Shown here one piece after another: positions 49,503 through 59,163 of a DNA stretch of 59,163 nt. Within the stretch, counting starts at the first letter, position 1; each line of letters opens with the position of its first letter. A model generated the notes under the pieces. The model searched no databases. It saw only the letters and a list, made by a program, of their open reading frames with translations, and was not told the origin of the DNA. The stretch comes from Aquificaceae bacterium. GTDB lineage: Bacteria > Aquificota > Aquificia > Aquificales > Aquificaceae. The stretch spans positions 1-59,163 of the forward strand of contig JALWVU010000025.1 in assembly GCA_027079305.1 (NCBI GenBank), read 5' to 3'. Position numbers and translations under genes: made by a program.

Positions 49503-49519
49503 CTGGCACACTTTTTGCT
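49503..49519 (+). promoter_or_regulatory. sigma-54 promoter of the nitrite reductase fusion
   Basis: CTGGCACACTTTTTGCT fits YTGGCAC-N5-TTGCW: GG at -24 and GC at -12 are correctly spaced. The start is near 49530, followed by GGGAGGAGGAAGG and the ATG at 49544. Confidence 0.85.
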
Positions 49520-49543: not shown

Positions 49544-52516
49544 ATGAAGGTGGTGATAATCGGGAACGGGATAGCGGGAACTGCGCTGGTCGAGGAGATA
49601 CTCCAGCAGACGGACGGCAGGGATGTGAGGATCCAGGTTTTCGGAGATGAGAAGTTCATCGGCTACAACAGGATCCTGATAACGGACGTGCTCGCGGGCA
49701 GGAAGACCATGAGCGAGATCTACATCAAGAGGTGGCAGTGGTATGAGGAGAGGGGTGTCCGCCTGGAGATAGGCAGGAGGGTGGACAGGCTCTTTCCAAA
49801 GAAGAAGCTCCTCGTTACCGAGGACGGGGACCTCTTCAGATACGACAAGGCCATAATAGCCACGGGGAGCAGGCCCTTCATCCCTCCCTCCATCAAGGGA
49901 ACCGACAAGAAGGGCGTCTTCACCTACAGGACCGCGGGGGACGTCTTCAAGATCCTCGACTACGCGAGGGTATCCGAGAGGGCGGTTGTCATAGGTGGTG
50001 GCCTCCTCGGCCTCGAGGTGGCAAAAGCCCTGAGGGACATAGGTCTCGAGGTCTACCTGGTCCACATACTCGACATCCTCATGGAGCAACAGCTGGACAG
50101 AACCGCGAGCGACCTGCTCAAAAGGGACCTCGAGAGGATGGGTATAAAGGTTCTCCTCAACAAGAACACGAAGGAGATACTGGGCGACAAGAAAGCTGAA
50201 GGTGTCAGGTTCGCGGACGGGGAGGAGCTTCCCGCGGACTTCGTGGTCATAGCGACGGGAATCAGGCCCAACGTGGACGTGGGTGTGAACTCGGGCCTGA
50301 AGGTGAACAGAGGCATCGTTGTGGACGACTACATGGAGACCTCCGCCAGCGACGTCTACGCGGTGGGCGAGTGCATAGAGCACAGGGGGAGGACCTACGG
50401 TCTCGTGGCTCCAATAATGGATCAGGTCAAGGTCTGCGCCCACAACGTGGTCCACGGCAACGAGAAGAGGTATGAGGGTTCTATCACCTACGCCATGCTC
50501 AAGGTGGCTGGGATAAACCTCTTCTCCGCGGGAGAGTTCCTCGAGAAGGAGGGGGACGAGGTTATCTCATTCCTCGACAACGGGAAGGGGATATACAGGA
50601 AGGCGGTGGTCAGGAACGACAAAATTGTAGGCACAATTTTGTATGGGGACATAAAGGGCAATAACTACCTCCTCGACCTCATAAAGAGCGGAAAAGATAT
50701 TTCCGATGAGAGGCCCTTCTTCCTCATCAAGCACATCGTTCCCAGGGAGATAACGGAGGTAGAAGAGCTAAAGGACACGGACATAGTCTGCAACTGCAAC
50801 GCTGTGACCAAGGGAGAGATCGTGAGGTGCATACAGGAGGGGTGCAGGACTCTCGAGGAAATTCAGCAGAGGACTAAGGCCTCCACCTCCTGCGGTAGCT
50901 GTCAGGAGCTGGTGGAGCAGATCCTGAGGCAGTTCGTCAAAGAAAAGCCCGAGAGGGTGAACAAGATAGAGGTGATAAAGAAGGAGCTCCATCCCTTCGA
51001 TCCCGAGTTCAGGGAGAGGATGAAGAGATACTTCGAGGACGGGAACTGGGAGAACATCCCCGAGGACGACAGGGACGTCCGTCTCAAGTGGTACGGAATC
51101 TTCTACAGGAAGGCTACACCTGGCTACTTCATGATAAGGATAAGGGTTCCCAACGGAAGGCTCACCTACGAGCAGGCGAAGGTGATAGCCCACCTCTCGG
51201 AGAAGTTCTGCAGGGGCGAGGTGGAGATAACCTCCAGACAGCAGATCCAGATAAGGTGGATAGAACTCAAGAACATCCCCGAGATCCTGGAGGCTCTAAA
51301 CAGCGTGGGGCTTTCCACACTCCAGACGGGGATGGACAACATAAGGAACGTCACGGGGGATCCCCTCACGGGCCTTGCGGAGGACTCTCTGATAGACACG
51401 CTCAAGCTGACTCAGGAGATAACGAGGGTCTTCCTCGGCAAGAAGAAGTATGCGGACATGCCCAGGAAGTTCAACGTGGCGGTTCTGGGATCCAAGACCG
51501 ACTCTATCAACGCCCAGTTTAACGACATCTGCCTCTACCTCGCCCAGAAGGAGGGCAAACTCGGCTTCAACGTGTATCTGGGCGGGAAGATAGGATCGGG
51601 AGGACCAGTCAAGGCGGTGGACATGGACATATTCATAGAGCCTTATGAGGCTCCAGATCTGTGCAGAGTGGTCTTCGACATCTACGCCACCTTCGGGAAC
51701 AGGGAGAACAGGTCCAAGAACAGGCTCTTCTTCCTGCTCCAGGAGTGGGGTGTGGACAGGTTCAGGGAGGAGATAGAGCAGAGGCTATACAAACCTCTCC
51801 CCTCCAAGGGTGAGGACCTGGTGGACAGGTGGGGCGAGAGGGAGGGAATTATAAACCTGAGGAACGGAACCTTCGCTGTATCCGCCATAGTTCCCGCTGG
51901 CAAGATAAAGGCCAAAGACCTCAGAACCGCCGCTGAGCTTGCGAGAAAATACGGTAGCAGGGAGCTGAGGCTCACCGTTTACCAGAACCTCTACATCCCC
52001 AACGTTCCCGAGGAGAACCTGGACGACCTCCTTGCGGAAGAGTTCTTCCAGAGGTATCCGACCGTCAGCTCCCCCTTCATGACGCACCTTATAGCCTGCG
52101 CGGGAAGCGACACCTGCGGTTTCGGAGTTATCCCCAACAAGAGCGACGCGGTGAGGGTCGCCAACTACCTCTCCCAGAGGCTGAAGCTCGACATCCCCAT
52201 AAGGATCCACTGGTCCGCCTGCGCAAAAGGTTGCGGTCAGCACGGGTGCGGGGACATAGGCTTCGTGGGAACCAAGACCAAGATTAACGGCGAGGCGGTC
52301 CTTGCGGTGGACATATTCGCTGGAGGATCTACATCAACGGAGGGCTTCAGGATCGTTCAGGGCCTTCCTCTGGACAGAGCGGAGGAAGCTGCGGAGCTCC
52401 TGATCAGATACTACCTCGAGAACAGGCAGGAGGGGGAGAGCTTCGCCCAGTTCGCCCACAGGGTGGGTCCAGATGCTCTGAAGGCGGTCATAATGGGCCT
52501 GGGGGTGGGGGTTTAG
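49544..52516 (+). CDS. assimilatory nitrite reductase: NirB-type NAD(P)H module fused to NirA-type module
   Basis: A 990-aa fusion. Residues 1-300 are an FAD/NAD(P)H dehydrogenase (VVIIGNGIAGTALVEEI, VVIGGGLLGLEVAKAL). About 310-400 is the rubredoxin-fold region. About 416-465 is a BFD-like [2Fe-2S] domain with Cys416, 418, 450 and 453. About 485-990 is a NirA-type two-repeat siroheme reductase with cluster ligands Cys852, 858, 893 and 897 (CX5C, CX3C). It would reduce nitrite to ammonium with NAD(P)H, transferring electrons internally. NirB proteins normally end in one shorter siroheme half, and NirA relies on ferredoxin. The RBS is strong. The 3' end overlaps hepT by 4 bp. Confidence 0.9.
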   Translation: MKVVIIGNGIAGTALVEEILQQTDGRDVRIQVFGDEKFIGYNRILITDVLAGRKTMSEIYIKRWQWYEERGVRLEIGRRVDRLFPKKKLLVTEDGDLFRYDKAIIATGSRPFIPPSIKGTDKKGVFTYRTAGDVFKILDYARVSERAVVIGGGLLGLEVAKALRDIGLEVYLVHILDILMEQQLDRTASDLLKRDLERMGIKVLLNKNTKEILGDKKAEGVRFADGEELPADFVVIATGIRPNVDVGVNSGLKVNRGIVVDDYMETSASDVYAVGECIEHRGRTYGLVAPIMDQVKVCAHNVVHGNEKRYEGSITYAMLKVAGINLFSAGEFLEKEGDEVISFLDNGKGIYRKAVVRNDKIVGTILYGDIKGNNYLLDLIKSGKDISDERPFFLIKHIVPREITEVEELKDTDIVCNCNAVTKGEIVRCIQEGCRTLEEIQQRTKASTSCGSCQELVEQILRQFVKEKPERVNKIEVIKKELHPFDPEFRERMKRYFEDGNWENIPEDDRDVRLKWYGIFYRKATPGYFMIRIRVPNGRLTYEQAKVIAHLSEKFCRGEVEITSRQQIQIRWIELKNIPEILEALNSVGLSTLQTGMDNIRNVTGDPLTGLAEDSLIDTLKLTQEITRVFLGKKKYADMPRKFNVAVLGSKTDSINAQFNDICLYLAQKEGKLGFNVYLGGKIGSGGPVKAVDMDIFIEPYEAPDLCRVVFDIYATFGNRENRSKNRLFFLLQEWGVDRFREEIEQRLYKPLPSKGEDLVDRWGEREGIINLRNGTFAVSAIVPAGKIKAKDLRTAAELARKYGSRELRLTVYQNLYIPNVPEENLDDLLAEEFFQRYPTVSSPFMTHLIACAGSDTCGFGVIPNKSDAVRVANYLSQRLKLDIPIRIHWSACAKGCGQHGCGDIGFVGTKTKINGEAVLAVDIFAGGSTSTEGFRIVQGLPLDRAEEAAELLIRYYLENRQEGESFAQFAHRVGPDALKAVIMGLGVGV
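50618..50643 (+). repeat. A/T-rich 26-bp repeat, copy 1 (10-bp inverted repeat)
   Basis: GACAAAATTGTAGG-C-ACAA then TTTTGTA lies inside the nitrite reductase fusion and encodes DKIVGTILY. ACAAAATTGT/ACAATTTTGT forms a perfect 10-bp inverted repeat around AGGC. It differs from the copy at 55831-55856 at three bases. The bases are unusually A/T-rich for this gene. Confidence 0.55.
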
Positions 52517-53300: not shown

Positions 53301-53317
53301 CTGGCACGCTTTTTGCA
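53301..53317 (+). promoter_or_regulatory. sigma-54 promoter of the FNT-cobA-trpD2 unit
   Basis: CTGGCACGCTTTTTGCA is an excellent -24/-12 element. The start is near 53328. It leaves about 60 nt of leader before the ATG at 53390, which has TAGGAGGTGG as RBS. Confidence 0.88.
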
Positions 53318-53389: not shown

Positions 53390-54217
53390 ATGGGTTACGT
53401 CAAGCCTGAAGCTGTGGTGGAGCAGATGATCCAGGCGGGCGCCTACAAGGCCAGCCTCTCAGCCAAGGACCTCCTGATAAGGGGGTTCCTCGCTGGATCG
53501 CTACTCGGCTACGCGGTCACGGTCGCCTTCTCAGCCATAGCCCAGTCGGATATGAGGATAGTGGGGTCCCTGGTATTCCCCCTCGGCTTCGTGATGATAG
53601 TTCTTCTGGGTCTCGAGCTGGTAACGGGGAACTTCGCCCTGATACCTCTGGCGGTCCTCGAGAGGAAGACCACCGTGGGGAGGATGCTCTACAACTGGTT
53701 CTGGGTCTACGTAGGCCACATAGCGGGAACCTTCTTCTACGGACTGCTCTTCTGGATATCCGCCACGAAGATGGGTGCGGTTCCCGAACCAGTGGTGGGG
53801 AAGATGATAGCCAAGGTGGCCGAGGCCAACACTCTAGGATACGCGGAGCTTGGCTTTGTAAACGGGTGGACGGTGGCCTTCGTGAAGGCTATCCTCTGCA
53901 ACTGGATGGTCACGCTCGGTGCGGTGATGGCCATGGTGGCCCAGCACGTCATAGGGAAGATCGCCGCCATGTGGCTTCCCATACTCACCTTCTTCGCCCT
54001 CGGGTTCGAGCACGCGGTGGTGAACATGTTCCTGATGCCCACGGGTATGCTCTTCGGTGCCGACATAACACTCTTCGACTGGTGGTTCTGGAACCAGATA
54101 CCTGTTACGCTCGGTAACCTGGTGGCTGGCTTTACCTTCACGGGGATGGGGCTTTACCTGACTCACCGCAGGAAGGAGGAGGTCCAGCCTCAGGAAGCTG
54201 TGGAGAAGGCGGCCTGA
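53390..54217 (+). CDS. nirC: formate/nitrite transporter family channel (nitrite)
   Basis: A 275-aa FNT protein with six membrane spans. Family motifs are visible: FLAGSLLGYAV, GLELVTGNFALIPLA (first broken helix), LGFVNGWTVAFVKAILCNWMV (second), and FFALGFEHAVVNMF with the central His of the FNT pore. The setting between nitrite reductase and siroheme synthesis points to nitrite rather than formate. The ATG at 53390 is fixed by its RBS. It is first of a unit with cobA 1 nt downstream. Confidence 0.93.
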   Translation: MGYVKPEAVVEQMIQAGAYKASLSAKDLLIRGFLAGSLLGYAVTVAFSAIAQSDMRIVGSLVFPLGFVMIVLLGLELVTGNFALIPLAVLERKTTVGRMLYNWFWVYVGHIAGTFFYGLLFWISATKMGAVPEPVVGKMIAKVAEANTLGYAELGFVNGWTVAFVKAILCNWMVTLGAVMAMVAQHVIGKIAAMWLPILTFFALGFEHAVVNMFLMPTGMLFGADITLFDWWFWNQIPVTLGNLVAGFTFTGMGLYLTHRRKEEVQPQEAVEKAA

Positions 54218-54218
54218 T

Positions 54219-54971
54219 ATGGGTAAGGTTTATCTGGTAGGCGGGGGTCCTGGGGACCCCGAGCTTCTTACTATAAAGGCTTACAGGATCTTGAAAGAGG
54301 CGGACGTGGTCCTCTACGATGCCCTCGTGAGCAGGGAGGTCCTGAAGTTCACAAGACCTGACTGCCTGAGGATATACGTGGGGAAGAGGGACGGGAAGCA
54401 CTCCCTCCCCCAGGAGGAGATAAACCATCTGCTCCTCAAGTTCTCTAAGGTATACGAGAAGGTGGTGAGGCTCAAGGGGGGAGATCCCTTCGTCTTCGGG
54501 AGAGGTGGGGAGGAGCTCCTCTTCCTCAGGGAAAAAGGTGTGGAGGTGGAGGTGGTGCCAGGCGTGACCTCCGCTGTCGCTGCTCCCTCCTCCGCCTTCA
54601 TCCCCGTAACGCAGAGGGGAATGGCCTCCTCCTTTGCGGTCGTCACCGGGCATCCAAACAGGGACGTGGACTGGTCTGCCTTCTCGAAGGTGGACACGCT
54701 CGTCATACTCATGGGCGTGAAGAACAGACAGAGGATAGCTCGGGAGCTCATAAGGGCTGGAAGGGATCCAGAGGAGCCTGTGGCCTTCATAGAGAAGGCT
54801 ACCACGCCAGATCAGAGGGAGGTCTTCACCACTCTCGGGGAGCTTGCCCAGAGCCCTCCAGAGGTGAGCACTCCAGCGGTCATGGTGGTGGGGAAGGTGG
54901 TAGACTTGGGAAGAGAAGTTCTCAGCCATGGACAGCATCGAGAAAGCCTTCAGGAAGCTCACCAAGCTTAA
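54219..54971 (+). CDS. cobA: uroporphyrinogen-III C-methyltransferase
   Basis: A 250-aa SAM-dependent methyltransferase making precorrin-2, the siroheme precursor for nitrite reductase. The signature VYLVGGGPGDPELLTIKAYR is at the start, then DVVLYDALVS, RLKGGDPFVFGRGGEE, VVPGVTSAVAAPS and LVILMGVKN, all family blocks. It lies 1 nt after the FNT gene and overlaps the next by 44 nt. It lacks the CysG dehydrogenase/chelatase domain, so another protein must finish siroheme. Confidence 0.95.
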   Translation: MGKVYLVGGGPGDPELLTIKAYRILKEADVVLYDALVSREVLKFTRPDCLRIYVGKRDGKHSLPQEEINHLLLKFSKVYEKVVRLKGGDPFVFGRGGEELLFLREKGVEVEVVPGVTSAVAAPSSAFIPVTQRGMASSFAVVTGHPNRDVDWSAFSKVDTLVILMGVKNRQRIARELIRAGRDPEEPVAFIEKATTPDQREVFTTLGELAQSPPEVSTPAVMVVGKVVDLGREVLSHGQHRESLQEAHQA

Positions 54972-55857
54972 GGAGAACCTCCAGGACCTTACGGAGGAGG
55001 AGGCCTACCTGCTTTTCAGAAGCATCTTAGAGGGGAGGTTCTCGGAGATCAGGACCTCCGCCTTCCTGACCGCCATGAGGATAAAGGGGGAGACTCCCGA
55101 AGAGCTTCTTGGAGTGATAAGAGCAATAAAGGAAAGTATGAACTTCCCCGAAGAAAAAAGGGAGGCCCTCGACCTTGCTCCCAACTACGACGGCAAGAAC
55201 AGGACGCTCTACATCCTCCCCTCAGCCCTCTGGATCTGCTCTCAGTTCGGGATGGAGTTCACGAGCCACTTCGCCCTGAGGACCCCTACCAAGGAGGGGG
55301 TAACGCTCTACGAGGTTTTGAAGGCCCTCGGGGTGGATGTGAACATAGATTTCTCGGACCAGAGGGACTACGCCCCTGAGCTATACAGGCTCATGCCCTT
55401 GAGGAAAGAACTTGGCTTCAGGACGCTCATAAACACGGTAGAGAAGTTCCTAAATCCCTTCAGAACCAGAAGGATCGTGGTCTCCCTCTTCCACAGGCCC
55501 TACTTTGAGAAGAACGAGGAGCTTTTGAAACTCCTCGGCTTCGAGGACTACACAATAGTCAAAGGCCTCGAGGGGGGACTGGAGCCTCCCACGGACAGGC
55601 CAGTCTACCTCAAGAGGAAGGGAAAGGAGATAGAGTCTATCGATCCCAGGGATCTGGGCCTGGACCTTCCCGATAGCGTTCAGACGGACAGGGTTCTCGA
55701 GGACTCGGTGGATCTGAACAGGATGATAATGGAGGGAAGGGAGAGGGGGAAGTTCTTCAACTGGGCGGTCTATACCGCAGGCCTGTTCCTCTACGCTGGT
55801 GGGCTGGTGGGGAGCCTGAGGGAGGGCATAGACAAAATTGTAGGTACAAAATTGTAG
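54928..55857 (+). CDS. TrpD2-like (anthranilate phosphoribosyltransferase-like) protein
   Basis: A 309-aa member of the glycosyltransferase-3 family. The N-terminal helical domain (LTEEEAYLLFRSILEGRFSE; SAFLTAMRIKGETPEELLG) and DLAPNYDGKNRTLYILPSA resemble TrpD2/YbiB rather than true TrpD, as the GTGGD and KHGNR-like catalytic texts are missing (SHFALRTPTKEG instead). A role in tryptophan synthesis is unlikely. YbiB-type proteins bind nucleic acid. Its place in a nitrate unit suggests a role in nitrogen control or cofactor use, unknown. It begins 44 nt inside cobA and ends inside the A/T-rich repeat. Confidence 0.85.
   Translation: MDSIEKAFRKLTKLKENLQDLTEEEAYLLFRSILEGRFSEIRTSAFLTAMRIKGETPEELLGVIRAIKESMNFPEEKREALDLAPNYDGKNRTLYILPSALWICSQFGMEFTSHFALRTPTKEGVTLYEVLKALGVDVNIDFSDQRDYAPELYRLMPLRKELGFRTLINTVEKFLNPFRTRRIVVSLFHRPYFEKNEELLKLLGFEDYTIVKGLEGGLEPPTDRPVYLKRKGKEIESIDPRDLGLDLPDSVQTDRVLEDSVDLNRMIMEGRERGKFFNWAVYTAGLFLYAGGLVGSLREGIDKIVGTKL
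55831..55856 (+). repeat. A/T-rich 26-bp repeat, copy 2
   Basis: GACAAAATTGTAGG-T-ACAA then AATTGTA occurs at the very end of the TrpD2-like gene and encodes DKIVGTKL-stop. It matches the copy at 50618-50643 at 23 of 26 bases. Here the second half is direct, not inverted. Confidence 0.55.
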
Positions 55858-55905: not shown

Positions 55906-55922
55906 TTGGCACGATCGTTGCA
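55906..55922 (+). promoter_or_regulatory. sigma-54 promoter of the PII-fusion/nitrate uptake unit
   Basis: TTGGCACGATCGTTGCA matches the full sigma-54 consensus. The start is near 55933, followed by AAGGAGGAG and the ATG at 55947. Confidence 0.88.
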
Positions 55923-55946
55923 AGCTTCCAGGGGAAGGAGGAGAGT

Positions 55947-56567
55947 ATGTCCGAGATCCTCGCTGTGGTGAGGAAGGAGAGGTCCTACGAGGTGATGAGG
56001 ACTCTCACGGAGGAGAAGATTCCCTACGTCTCCTGGACGGTCAAGGGAAGGGGAAAGGAGGGAGGCCTGAGATACAAGGGGCTCGTCAGGGAGAAGGTTC
56101 TGATGCCCTTCCTTCCCAAGAGGGCCTTCCTCGTCTTCCCCGAGGAGGGAAGGGAGGAGGAAGTGGTTCAGCTAATAATCGAGTCCGCCCACACGGGCGC
56201 CTACGGGGACGGGAAGATCTTTCTGATCAGTGAGAAGGAGGAAAGCACCATGAGGCTCATAAAGGCGGTCATAAGGCCAGAGAAGGTCTACGAGGTGGTG
56301 AAAGCCCTCGAGAAGGCTGGCTTTAAGGCCATGACCATGTGGGACGTGGTGGGGAGAGGCAAGGAGGGGGGAGTGGTCGTGGGGGAGACTCCCTACGACG
56401 AGCTCGCCAAGACTCTAATCATGGTCGCGGTTGAGGAGAGGGACGTGGACAAGGTGGTGTCCACGATCACCAAGGCCGCACGCACGGGAGCCTACGGGGA
56501 CGGAAAGGTCTTCGTCTGCTCCCTCTCCAAGGTCTGGACCATAAGGACCAGGGAGGAAGGTTTATGA
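55947..56567 (+). CDS. tandem PII signal protein (NifI2-like plus NifI1-like fusion)
   Basis: A 206-aa protein made of two PII (GlnB/GlnK) domains. The first (1-100) has VKGRGKEGGLRYKGL and LPKRAFLVF, a NifI2-like T-loop, then HTGAYGDGKIFLI. The second (102-206) has VVGRGKEGGVVVGETPYDEL, a short NifI1-like T-loop, then ARTGAYGDGKVFVC and ends with the PII tail VWTIRTREEGL. PII proteins sense ATP/ADP and 2-oxoglutarate. Met102 begins MRLIKAVIRP and has AAGGAGG 8 nt upstream, so a separate second domain may also be made. It lies just ahead of, and overlaps by 4 nt, the transporter gene. Confidence 0.9.
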   Translation: MSEILAVVRKERSYEVMRTLTEEKIPYVSWTVKGRGKEGGLRYKGLVREKVLMPFLPKRAFLVFPEEGREEEVVQLIIESAHTGAYGDGKIFLISEKEESTMRLIKAVIRPEKVYEVVKALEKAGFKAMTMWDVVGRGKEGGVVVGETPYDELAKTLIMVAVEERDVDKVVSTITKAARTGAYGDGKVFVCSLSKVWTIRTREEGL

Positions 56568-57991
56568 GACTGCTTTCGGATATATGGGACGCGGTGAAGA
56601 GGGGCAATCCCAGGGCCCTCTTCGCCAGCTTTATCTACTTTGACCACTCCTTCAGCATCTGGCTCCTCTTCGGTGCTCTGGGGCCTTTCATAGCGGAGGC
56701 CTTCGGCCTTTCGGGGGCCCAGAAGGGCTTTATGGTGGCCATACCAGTCATAGCGGCCGCCATCTTCAGGCTCAACTTCGGCCACATGTTCCAGTTCATG
56801 GACGGCAGGATCATAGCGGTCATGGGCATACTCCTCTCCCTCGTGCCCCATCTCTACATGCTCTTTAAAGGCTACAGGGTGAGCTACGAGGATCTTCTAT
56901 GGATGGGCGTCTTCCTGGGGGTGGCGGGGGCCAGCTTCGCCATAGCCCTTCCCATGGCTGGGAGCAACTATCCCAGGGAGGTTCAGGGGCTCGTTCTGGG
57001 CCTTGCGGCTGCGGGCAACATAGGGGCGGTTCTGGACGGTGTTCTCTTCCCCCCTATAGCGAGGGCGATAGGCTGGGAGCACACCTTCGTCCTCTCGGGG
57101 GTTCTGCTCCTTATAGCCCTGGCCTTCGTGATCCTCTGGGGGAGCGATAAGACCGAGAAGAACGAGGGGAGTAAGGTATATCCAGTCCTCGCCTTCTTTG
57201 CGACTTTGGCCTTCATGGTTCTTTTAGCTCTGGGCTTCCAGAAGGGGTGGTTCGGCATAACTGGGAACGCTGGGAAGCTCCTGATACCAGTCCTCGGATC
57301 CCTCTTCGCCATAGCCCTTATGCCCCTCTCCTTCAAAAAGGTGTTCCTCGAGAGGGACACCTGGGTGATGATGCTCGCCTACTCGATCACCTTCGGGGGC
57401 TTCGTGGGGATGTCCTCTTACGTGGCCATGCTCCTGAGGGATGTCTACGGGATCTCTAAGGTGGAAGCGGGGATGCTGATGTCCCTCTTCGCCTTCACGG
57501 GTGCGATGATAAGGCCCCTCGGGGGACACATAGCGGACAGGATAAGCGGTGCGACCGCCCTCCTCTTCTTTCTCGGGGGTATGGCTGGTGTGAACTTCCT
57601 CTTTGCCCTCTTCACTCCGCCCCTGCTCCTCGGTATACTCTTCTTTCTGGCCCTCTACTCCTTCTACGGCCTCGGGAACGGCGCCATCTTCCAGCTGGTT
57701 CCCCACAGGTGGCCCTACCAGACGGGCCTGATGACGGGGATAATCGGCGCCGCTGGGGGGATAGGGGGCTTCTACCTCCCGACCGTGAACGGGATCGTCT
57801 TCGAGGCGACGGGGGCCTACAACCTGGCCTTCGCCCTCTTCGGATCTCTTGCTGTCCTCTGCCTTGTGATAGTCAAGCTCCTCCACGCTAAGTGGATGGA
57901 GTGGGCTTACGTTCGCTACGACTACGAGAAGGATCAGCTCGTGGGCATAGATCCCAGGAGCGGAAGGGTGATCATGGAGATAGGGACATGA
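56564..57991 (+). CDS. narK: nitrate/nitrite MFS transporter
   Basis: A 475-aa NarK/NasA-type transporter with 12 spans. FYFDHSFSIWLLFGALGPFI is the helix 1 pattern, and GAGGIGGF-type nitrate signatures occur as GLAAAGNIGAVLDGVLFP (helix 5) and GAAGGIGGFYLPTVNG (helix 11). ADRISGATALLFF lies after helix 8, in the usual DR loop position. It would import nitrate for the reductase coded next. It overlaps both neighbours by 4 nt. Confidence 0.93.
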   Translation: MRLLSDIWDAVKRGNPRALFASFIYFDHSFSIWLLFGALGPFIAEAFGLSGAQKGFMVAIPVIAAAIFRLNFGHMFQFMDGRIIAVMGILLSLVPHLYMLFKGYRVSYEDLLWMGVFLGVAGASFAIALPMAGSNYPREVQGLVLGLAAAGNIGAVLDGVLFPPIARAIGWEHTFVLSGVLLLIALAFVILWGSDKTEKNEGSKVYPVLAFFATLAFMVLLALGFQKGWFGITGNAGKLLIPVLGSLFAIALMPLSFKKVFLERDTWVMMLAYSITFGGFVGMSSYVAMLLRDVYGISKVEAGMLMSLFAFTGAMIRPLGGHIADRISGATALLFFLGGMAGVNFLFALFTPPLLLGILFFLALYSFYGLGNGAIFQLVPHRWPYQTGLMTGIIGAAGGIGGFYLPTVNGIVFEATGAYNLAFALFGSLAVLCLVIVKLLHAKWMEWAYVRYDYEKDQLVGIDPRSGRVIMEIGT

Positions 57992-59163
57992 GGAACTTTC
58001 AGTGTCCATACTGCGGTGTGGGCTGTGGGCTTTACTTAGACGAGAGGGGAAAGATAAAGGGAGACTTTGAGCATCCCGCCAACTACGGGAACCTCTGCAA
58101 GAAGCCCGTATACCTCCCCAAGGTCATGAAGGAAGGCAGGATAGGGAGGCCCCTCTACAGGGAGAAGAAGGATGAGGATTTCAGGGAGATAAGCTGGGAG
58201 GAGGCCTACGGTATACTGGCGGAAAGGCTCAGATCCCTCGATCCTGATGAAACTTACTTCTATCTGTCGGGCCAGCTCCTCACCGAAGACATTTACGTGG
58301 CCAACAAGTTTGTGAAGGGTTTTCTGGGGACAAACAACGTAGACGCCAACTCCCGTCTCTGCATGGCGAGCGCGGTGACCGCCTACAGGATGGCCTTCGG
58401 GTCCGACGGCCCCCCCTGCACCTACGAGGACATAGACGATGCGGACACCTTCCTCTTCATAGGATCCAACGCAGCGATAGCCCATCCCGTCCTCTTCAAG
58501 AGGGTCCTGAAGAGGAGGAGAGAGACGGACAGCTCCCTTATAATCACGATAGATCCCGTGGAGACGGAGACCGCAAGGAAGAGCGACGTCTTCATCCAGA
58601 TAAGGGCTGGGACGGACACCGCCTTCCTGAACTCCGTCCTCTACGTCCTCCACAGGGAGGGGTGGGTGGACTTCGAGTTCGTGGAGAGGTATACGGAGGG
58701 CTTCGAGAGGACCCTCGAGCAGGCGGAGAGGTTCCCTCCAGAGGTGGCCTCGAGCATCTGTGAGGTGAGGGAGGAGGACATATACCTGGTGGCGGAGGCC
58801 TTCGCCAGGAGCGAAAAGCTCATCTCCTTCTGGTGCCAGGGCCTGAACCAGTCAGTGAACGGGACGATGAAGAACCTGGCCCTCATAAACCTCCACCTGG
58901 CGACGGGAAGGCTCAACGGAAGGGGATGCCCCTTCTCCATAACTGGCCAGCCCAACGCCATGGGCGGAAGGGAGGTGGGCTACCTCTCCAACGGTCTCCC
59001 AGGCTACAGGGACGTGAGGAATCCCGAGGACAGGGAGTTTATGGAGGAGTTCTGGGGGGTTAAAGGAATAAGGCCAGATCCTGGCCCCACCATAACGGAG
59101 GCGGTGGACCTGATCCTTGAGGGCAGGATAAAGCTCCTCTGGGTCGTCTGCACCAATCCAGCG
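57988..59163 (+). CDS. assimilatory nitrate reductase catalytic subunit, 3' end cut off
   Basis: The frame is open from the ATG at 57988 to the window end (392 codons). MRNFQCPYCGVGCGLYLDE gives the N-terminal [4Fe-4S] ligands (CX2CX3C, fourth Cys in GNLCKKP). NSRLCMASAVTAYRMAFGSDG carries the Cys ligand of Mo. WCQGLNQSVNGTMKNLALI and FSITGQPNAMGGREVG are typical of NasA/NarB-type bis-MGD enzymes. Members are about 700-900 aa, so roughly half is outside the window. No signal peptide is seen, so it is cytoplasmic. It overlaps narK by 4 nt. Confidence 0.95.
   Translation, partial: MRNFQCPYCGVGCGLYLDERGKIKGDFEHPANYGNLCKKPVYLPKVMKEGRIGRPLYREKKDEDFREISWEEAYGILAERLRSLDPDETYFYLSGQLLTEDIYVANKFVKGFLGTNNVDANSRLCMASAVTAYRMAFGSDGPPCTYEDIDDADTFLFIGSNAAIAHPVLFKRVLKRRRETDSSLIITIDPVETETARKSDVFIQIRAGTDTAFLNSVLYVLHREGWVDFEFVERYTEGFERTLEQAERFPPEVASSICEVREEDIYLVAEAFARSEKLISFWCQGLNQSVNGTMKNLALINLHLATGRLNGRGCPFSITGQPNAMGGREVGYLSNGLPGYRDVRNPEDREFMEEFWGVKGIRPDPGPTITEAVDLILEGRIKLLWVVCTNPA

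Follow-up and report, generated by a model that had tools for sequence, protein, structure and literature searches.

In methanogens and anaerobic bacteria, NifI1 and NifI2 form the PII pair of nitrogenase. According to the available sections of PMC9765008, NifI1,2 acts by blocking the NifH site of NifDK; the two proteins are both required, and 2-oxoglutarate together with Mg and ATP reverses the block. NifI pairs are known nitrogenase switches that also occur in nif operons of Aquificales (available part of PMC12780486). PII proteins have also been linked to nitrate. The accessible parts of two papers describe that cyanobacterial PII inhibits nitrate uptake via binding to NrtC and NrtD (PMC6603209) and that loss of mycobacterial PII disturbs growth on nitrate and nitrite (PMC11001197), and the accessible part of PMC2607301 provided no useful nitrate-PII link. 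Within the open-access PMC literature, we recognised no paper on a PII-PII fusion, on NifI with nitrate assimilation or on the Aquificaceae gene discussed here.

We analysed a DNA stretch of 59,163 nt from an Aquificaceae bacterium, which is referred to as the window in the following. An initial annotation had proposed that it encodes a NifI2-like and a NifI1-like PII domain fused in one polypeptide, located outside a nitrogenase cluster and possibly controlling nitrate uptake or reduction. Below, we relate this gene to its relatives and to the described PII systems.

Gene Structure and Operon Layout

The reading frame starts with ATG and encodes 206 aa. When the domains are scanned apart, PF00543 matches residues 1-94 (E 3.9e-9) as well as residues 102-203 (E 8.3e-27), i.e., both halves score above the cut-off of 25 bits for the PII superfamily (37.2 and 94 bits). 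Thus, one polypeptide indeed holds two PII domains. Coordinates of all features are collected in Table 1. The start of narK overlaps the stop of the fusion gene and the start of narB overlaps the stop of narK, such that the fusion directly precedes a nitrate transporter and a nitrate reductase, as had been annotated. The annotated sigma-54 promoter is present as well, and the partner of the fusion is a nitrate operon, which agrees with a location outside a nitrogenase cluster.

Table 1. Features of the fusion locus and of the related nitrogen genes in the window (all positions refer to the window).
Feature	Coordinates	Strand	Remarks
Sigma-54 element ahead of nirA	49504..49518	+	
nirA-type nitrite reductase; pyridine-nucleotide and BFD domains at the N-terminus	49544..52516	+	PF01077, PF03460, PF07992, PF04324
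Sigma-54 element ahead of the formate/nitrite transporter gene	53302..53316	+	
Formate/nitrite transporter family protein	53390..54217	+	PF01226 8.6e-66
Sigma-54 (-24/-12) promoter element TGGCACGATCGTTGCA (TGGCACG-N4-TTGCA)	55907..55922	+	near-perfect element
Shine-Dalgarno AAGGAGG for the full-length product	55935..55941	+	sequence
PII-PII fusion gene, NifI2-like then NifI1-type domain, 206 aa	55947..56567	+	
Domain 1 (residues 1-95), NifI2-like PII without C-terminal segment	55947..56231	+	PF00543 3.9e-9; tree 89/72 with NifI2
Internal Shine-Dalgarno AAGGAGG	56235..56241	+	8 nt before the Met102 ATG
Internal start codon (Met102)	56250..56252	+	conserved Shine-Dalgarno and start
Domain 2 (residues 102-206), NifI1-type PII; proposed free 105-aa product	56250..56567	+	PF00543 8.3e-27; 98/99 with NifI1; best PDB match 9p1x_H
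narK-type MFS nitrate transporter (nitrate specificity by similarity)	56564..57991	+	PF07690 1e-32
narB-type molybdopterin nitrate reductase, extends past the window end	57988..59163	+	PF00384, PF04879

The pattern TGGCAY-N5-TTGC matches three times in the window, against 0.22 matches expected from 50 mononucleotide shuffles, and the three matches head nirA, the formate/nitrite transporter gene and the fusion, respectively. Based on these three elements, the nitrate genes of the window look like one nitrogen-controlled regulon.

Some neighbouring genes are worth recording. The nirA product of the window has 990 aa, with the N-terminal pyridine-nucleotide and BFD [2Fe-2S] module fused on. A glycosyltransferase family 3 protein is encoded at 54928-55857, with a tetrapyrrole methylase gene on one side and the fusion on the other; seven of the 15 loci inspected carry a similar ORF upstream of the fusion. 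The same genome has another PII match (L057:1369-7200, contig G000:C74), which follows two large ORFs that we take to resemble the NdhF-like and DUF2309-like pair of bicarbonate-uptake operons.

Distribution of Fused and Split Forms

A full-length fusion is present in 20 of 136 Aquificota genomes, which belong to four genera of one family (g1, g3, g4 and g8), and one further copy is cut by a contig end. When considering the window's own genome and 60 relatives (61 genomes), the fusion is complete in 15 and truncated by a contig end in another. In nine genomes from the genera g6, g9, g10 and g11, the two domains are encoded by separate adjacent genes, whose ORFs overlap by four bases in locus L050. 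No genus of the 136-genome sample shows both the fused and the split form. Presence in 20 genomes rules out that the fusion is an artefact or a lost stop of one genome. The initial annotation had named a missing stop that is present in relatives as an observation against the fusion. The full-length gene is not one genome's lost stop; relatives from other genera do have two separate genes.

In the loci L069-L208, no ORF of sufficient length contains a PII pair. Two partial PII matches each are seen in six of their ORFs, which at 152-182 aa are too short for two domains; from their sequences, we read each as one probable NifI2 with a long T-loop. A wider profile scan of contigs returned at least 593 stretches; among the matches listed, 115 were confirmed, and the best 80 of these 115 were kept, such that further fusions may exist beyond these loci. 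Loci L058 and L062-L067 are taken as copies of genomes already counted and are left out of the counts, while L059-L061 correspond to genomes G375-G377 and L068 to G387.

Affinities of the Two Domains

For the phylogeny, 308 domain hits were reduced to 275 that pass the E-value and length filters and to 205 distinct ones; 117 of these 205 and two more from the ORF lists form a tree of 119 rows. Leaving out 37 of the 119 rows (long branches and near copies) results in the tree of 82 PII domains discussed here.

Domain 2, its split counterparts, its Chloroflexi counterparts and NifI1 are located on one side of a branch with support 98/99. The initial annotation's reading of the second domain as NifI1-like would be challenged by a placement of both domains within GlnB/GlnK. 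For domain 2, such a forced grouping with GlnB/K is 10.6 log units worse and is not formally rejected (p-AU 0.087). A profile of domain 2 scores 95-124 bits on NifI1 rows compared to 45-80 bits on GlnB/K rows. Its best PDB match is 9p1x_H, which aligns without gaps (E 4.4e-27); 9p1x comprises 12 NifI1-type, 6 NifI2-type and 6 nitrogenase alpha chains, where the NifI labels are assigned from sequence matches. The NifI1-type identity of domain 2 is supported by the tree, the profile scores and the best PDB match.

Domain 1 and its split counterparts form one group (100/99), which is placed with NifI2 and the Chloroflexi domain 1 at 89/72. Neither a grouping with GlnB/K (p-AU 0.35) nor one with the NifI1 set (p-AU 0.37) is rejected. 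When compared alone to the PDB, domain 1 matches best to the archaeal GlnK 3ncp (E 3.3e-12), while the NifI2-type chain 9p1x_G ranks ninth (E 2.7e-8). Given this placement with its unrejected alternatives and the PDB ranking, we use 'NifI2-like' as a fair label that follows from the pairing and does not claim descent; the NifI2 identity itself is weakly indicated and not significant. The NifI2-like character of the first T-loop had been deduced from the LPKR that follows it. This motif is not diagnostic: in relatives, R is also replaced by T, E, V, S or G, and FLPK is also found in GlnB-type proteins of the phylum.

The C-terminus was assessed by tail length, since a regular expression for the C-terminal motif misjudged NifI1 (23/28 without motif). 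Four free-standing split domain 1 proteins show 8-9 residues after GDGK, compared to 19-41 in GlnB/K, 19-32 in NifI2 (19 rows) and 19-31 in NifI1. That is, domain 1 is without the roughly 20 residues that follow GDGK at the C-terminus of NifI2.

Ligand Sites and Predicted Structure

In GlnK, Gln39 completes the Mg coordination with 2-oxoglutarate, and the C-terminal segment brings Arg101 and Arg103 to the neighbour's nucleotide (both from the available part of PMC8395244). Both fusion domains deviate from GlnB/GlnK at this Mg/2-oxoglutarate site. They show Glu at the Gln39 position in 15/15 fused rows each, as do four split pairs. In comparison, Gln is found in 28/28 NifI1 rows and in 19/26 GlnB/K rows, where it is common and not universal. 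If the roles of Arg101 and Arg103 can be carried over by position, they would concern the segment that domain 1 is missing. We predict from the altered position 39 and the missing segment that the sites are unequal and that 2-oxoglutarate sensing is weaker or different.

An AF2 model of the fusion based on 18 sequences (mean pLDDT 77.1, pTM 0.73) shows two domains with PII-like secondary structure, and its low-confidence stretches are the T-loops (residues 36-54, 137-145 and 147-150). Residues 100-206 of the model resemble PII structures with Z of 12-14 (up to 14.1, rmsd 3.6 over 102 residues).

Genomic Context and Proposed Target

In all 20 fusion loci, narK is directly downstream of the fusion. 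A sigma-54 element is found within 60 nt upstream in 19 of them; in the 20th (L037), the fusion belongs to a longer series of genes with the same orientation, and an element precedes the first of these. Where the contig continues past narK (15 loci), narB follows narK ten times and does not adjoin it in the other five (L038, L039, L040, L043 and L044). For two of the five loci cut at narK (genomes G003 and G009), narK-narB is seen on a different contig. At an identity of at least 68%, NarK is encoded in 18 of the 61 genomes, i.e., in the 15 fusion genomes, in two genomes at a contig end (G011, G043) and in one without PII nearby (G049). A close NirA is absent from four of the 15 fusion genomes (G007, G023, G030 and G034).

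Seven of nine split pairs are part of a nitrate cluster, namely with NarK-NarB (G379, G391 and G380) or with Nrt and NarB (G384, which has NarK too, G392, G026 and G024), and nirA is in the locus of seven of nine. The remaining pairs, of G033 and G387, have no adjoining nitrate gene; for G033, no NarK or NirA match is found at E 1e-10. There are also nitrate clusters without the PII pair (G031, G049 and G042). Nitrate transport is the commonest link of the PII pair, not a rule, and NarK cannot be its sole target, since G026 has the pair but no NarK.

Two Chloroflexi MAGs encode a NifI2-like PII, nirA and a NifI1-type PII in a row (L096:4108-6315 and L116:353-2560). That is, a second phylum also has NifI-type pairs that are associated with the assimilation of nitrite or nitrate. 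To this we add that the L096 locus also shows an Amt match. A survey of 301 Chloroflexota genomes with profile A2 yielded 49 with a match at 1e-12, and among the 30 loci read the arrangement of the pair and nirA was not found again: 28 show an Amt match (L195 also a NarB-family one), one holds a nif pair (L169) and one is the known nirA case (L168). An order-level repeat of this search covered only the same genome.

Several further observations were made at these loci. Globin genes are located in the fusion's gene run after the sigma-54 element (L037:7627-8067) and just upstream of a split pair (L052:9828-10238), and a short ORF that appears hemerythrin-like by eye is found between a split PII pair and nrtA (L050:8267-8686). 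In G030, i.e., in a genome without close NirA, a large ORF with a Tat-like start is divergent from fusion-narK (L043:987-3857); by eye and given a NarB-family match in the locus, it is perhaps a molybdopterin nitrate reductase. The orphan split pair of G033 (L051:9205-9806) resides in a near-complete genome where nif genes and their own NifI1 are also present. In G379, a second, nif-type NifI pair with GRGKQKG (L216:15103-15845) is found about 1.5 kb beyond nirA and about 5 kb from the nitrate-type split pair.

A PF00148 search of the 61 genomes, 15 of which carry the fusion, finds no nitrogenase-family protein in any of these 15. Nitrogenase control is thus ruled out for these 15. What the context suggests is control of nitrate uptake or reduction, as had been proposed initially. 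With moderate confidence, we read these gene neighbourhoods as indicating nitrate transport rather than reduction as the target.

The same regulator might instead act on the reductase step (NarB or NirA), where it would block an electron-donor docking site as NifI1,2 blocks NifH docking. The frequent position of narB after narK, including the two cases on other contigs, is in accordance with such a target, as are the Chloroflexi pair around nirA and the nirA genes in most split-pair loci. On the other hand, a close NirA is missing from four of the 15 genomes with the fusion and narB is off narK in five of 15 loci, yet narK is present in 20/20, which renders a reductase target rather unlikely.

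A Conserved Internal Start Codon

GGAGG and a start codon are present at residue 102 in all 20 fusion genes (ATG in 16, GTG in 4), such that the AAGGAGG ahead of Met102, which the initial annotation had pointed out, marks a conserved start. We regard it as the most informative feature of the gene. Within 18 aligned fusions, residue 102 is the only column out of 198 at which 18/18 sequences combine a suitably spaced GGAGG with a start codon; the next best column reaches 4/18. Away from residue 102, GGAGG is upstream of 5.8% of the positions of these fusions. Two other stretches show it in up to 14/18 genes with no start codon in common. We also considered chance occurrence of GGAGG in an AG-rich gene, which is rejected; the in-gene rate is 4-12%.

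The linker residues vary (e.g., KEEST, QEVGV, EEVSD, GGSN and KEGTN) and GGAGG is read in different frames. Under synonymous recoding, the chance of GGAGG is 0.14-0.69 per linker (computed for 15 of the 20 genes). The product over 13 distinct linkers is about 4e-6, which is only a guide since the genes are related.

At the annotated first start, GGAGG is found in 5/20 fusion genes. In the remaining 15, a distance of 12-17 nt separates the end of the sigma-54 element from the start, and none of these has GGAGG there (one shows a weaker 4-mer). Given the usual sigma-54 spacing, such a distance results in a leader of only few bases. All 20 genes, i.e., both groups, have the internal GGAGG.

The internal ribosome-binding site could be an unused leftover of a once separate gene, in which case the fusion would be the sole product and would oligomerize with itself. 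An ancestral origin of the site is probable, because the free second gene of the split relatives starts at the matching place, with GGAGG in 8/9. However, GGAGG and the start codon are kept in 20/20 despite changing linkers and frames, and the pairwise protein identity of the 18 fusions drops to 52% (median 64%). Descent alone is thus a weak account of the internal site, and we regard an unused leftover as improbable. Given the conserved site and the matching start of the split second genes, the second start seems to have been retained when the two genes were fused. We consider it likely from this conservation that the gene makes two products, i.e., the fusion and free domain 2.

Discussion

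We propose that a NifI-type PII pair, kin to the nitrogenase switch, was reused in nitrate assimilation and that its two genes became fused. The cistron would yield the 206-aa I2-I1 fusion as well as the free 105-aa I1 domain, and one copy of each would complete a PII trimer with pseudo-symmetry, in which two lobes are I1 and the third is I2. For this 2:1 trimer, whose ratio we take by analogy from the 12:6 chain count of 9p1x, we see about an even chance; a homo-oligomer of the fusion is possible instead. When nitrogen is plentiful, the trimer would dock on and block nitrate entry, i.e., NarK, or NarK or the Nrt ABC transporter in split relatives; at low nitrogen status, it would release the nitrate importer. 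The proposed block of nitrate entry has its precedents in NifI1,2 on NifDK and in cyanobacterial PII on NrtC/NrtD. Sensing would probably rely on ATP/ADP more than in GlnB, since both domains carry Glu in place of Gln39 and the segment that normally contributes to the neighbour's nucleotide site is missing from domain 1. The same exchange of Gln39 in both domains also speaks against the model in that it argues against the usual 2-oxoglutarate release.

Taken as a whole (dual product, 2:1 trimer and nitrogen-dependent block of nitrate entry), we hold this model with middling confidence. The sharper statement that one gene encodes the subunit ratio, i.e., that it specifies a PII trimer which is fixed at 2:1, has asymmetric ligand sites and regulates nitrate import, is tentative and stays somewhat below that. 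The three sigma-54 elements that head nitrate and nitrite genes here lead us to expect an NtrC-type activator, and these elements would also suit a fusion that acts on gene expression (e.g., on the sigma-54 activator or its kinase, like GlnB with NtrB) and whose operon position reflects co-regulation only, but this is very improbable, since the genome already has GlnB beside glnA and both the NifI1-type domain 2 and the constant narK linkage point to a dedicated role.

If the proposed block of nitrate entry holds, the fixed-ratio trimer would be a NifI-type regulator with a non-nitrogenase target, which would point to an old origin of the NifI pair as a switch of broader use in nitrogen acquisition. 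A nitrate-linked fusion in organisms without nitrogenase would widen the role of the NifI branch of PII. The fusion would furthermore show how translation sets a subunit ratio within one gene and would offer a compact system for studying the sensing of ATP, ADP and 2-oxoglutarate by an unequal PII trimer.

Comparison with Known PII Systems

GlnK-AmtB shares with the fusion that a PII gene and a transporter gene form one operon. In contrast, GlnK is a single-domain homotrimer on an ammonium channel, and domain 2 does not group with GlnK. Mycobacterial PII, as far as described in the available part of PMC11001197, shares the link to nitrate/nitrite assimilation but is a single GlnK-like PII that acts with Amt. 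The cyanobacterial PII-NrtABCD system stops nitrate uptake (available part of PMC6603209), which is the role proposed here. There, however, a single GlnB-type PII acts via NrtC/NrtD, whereas here the regulator is NifI1-type, fused and beside an MFS NarK. The Chloroflexi pair also combines a NifI2-like and a NifI1-type PII linked to nitrite reductase, and its domain 1 is short as well (14 and 17 residues after GDGK). It differs by separate genes flanking nirA and by a NifI1-type partner that keeps Gln39 (2/2).

The closest relation is to NifI1/NifI2 itself. Domain 2 is in the NifI1 clade and has a short T-loop, and two unlike PII domains are encoded together in a nitrogen-acquisition operon. 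In contrast to NifI1/NifI2, the order is reversed (I2-like first), the domains are fused with an internal start, the fusion shows GRGKEGG instead of GRGKQ[KR]G, and domain 1 is without the C-terminal segment and without significant NifI2 identity. Furthermore, the gene is part of a nitrate operon rather than of a nif cluster with nifHDK, in a genome with no PF00148 match, which is why we do not file it as NifI1 proper. Judging from the sequences, the fusion is thus not NifI1/NifI2 in the strict sense, and a protein that works like NifI1/NifI2 is its best reading.
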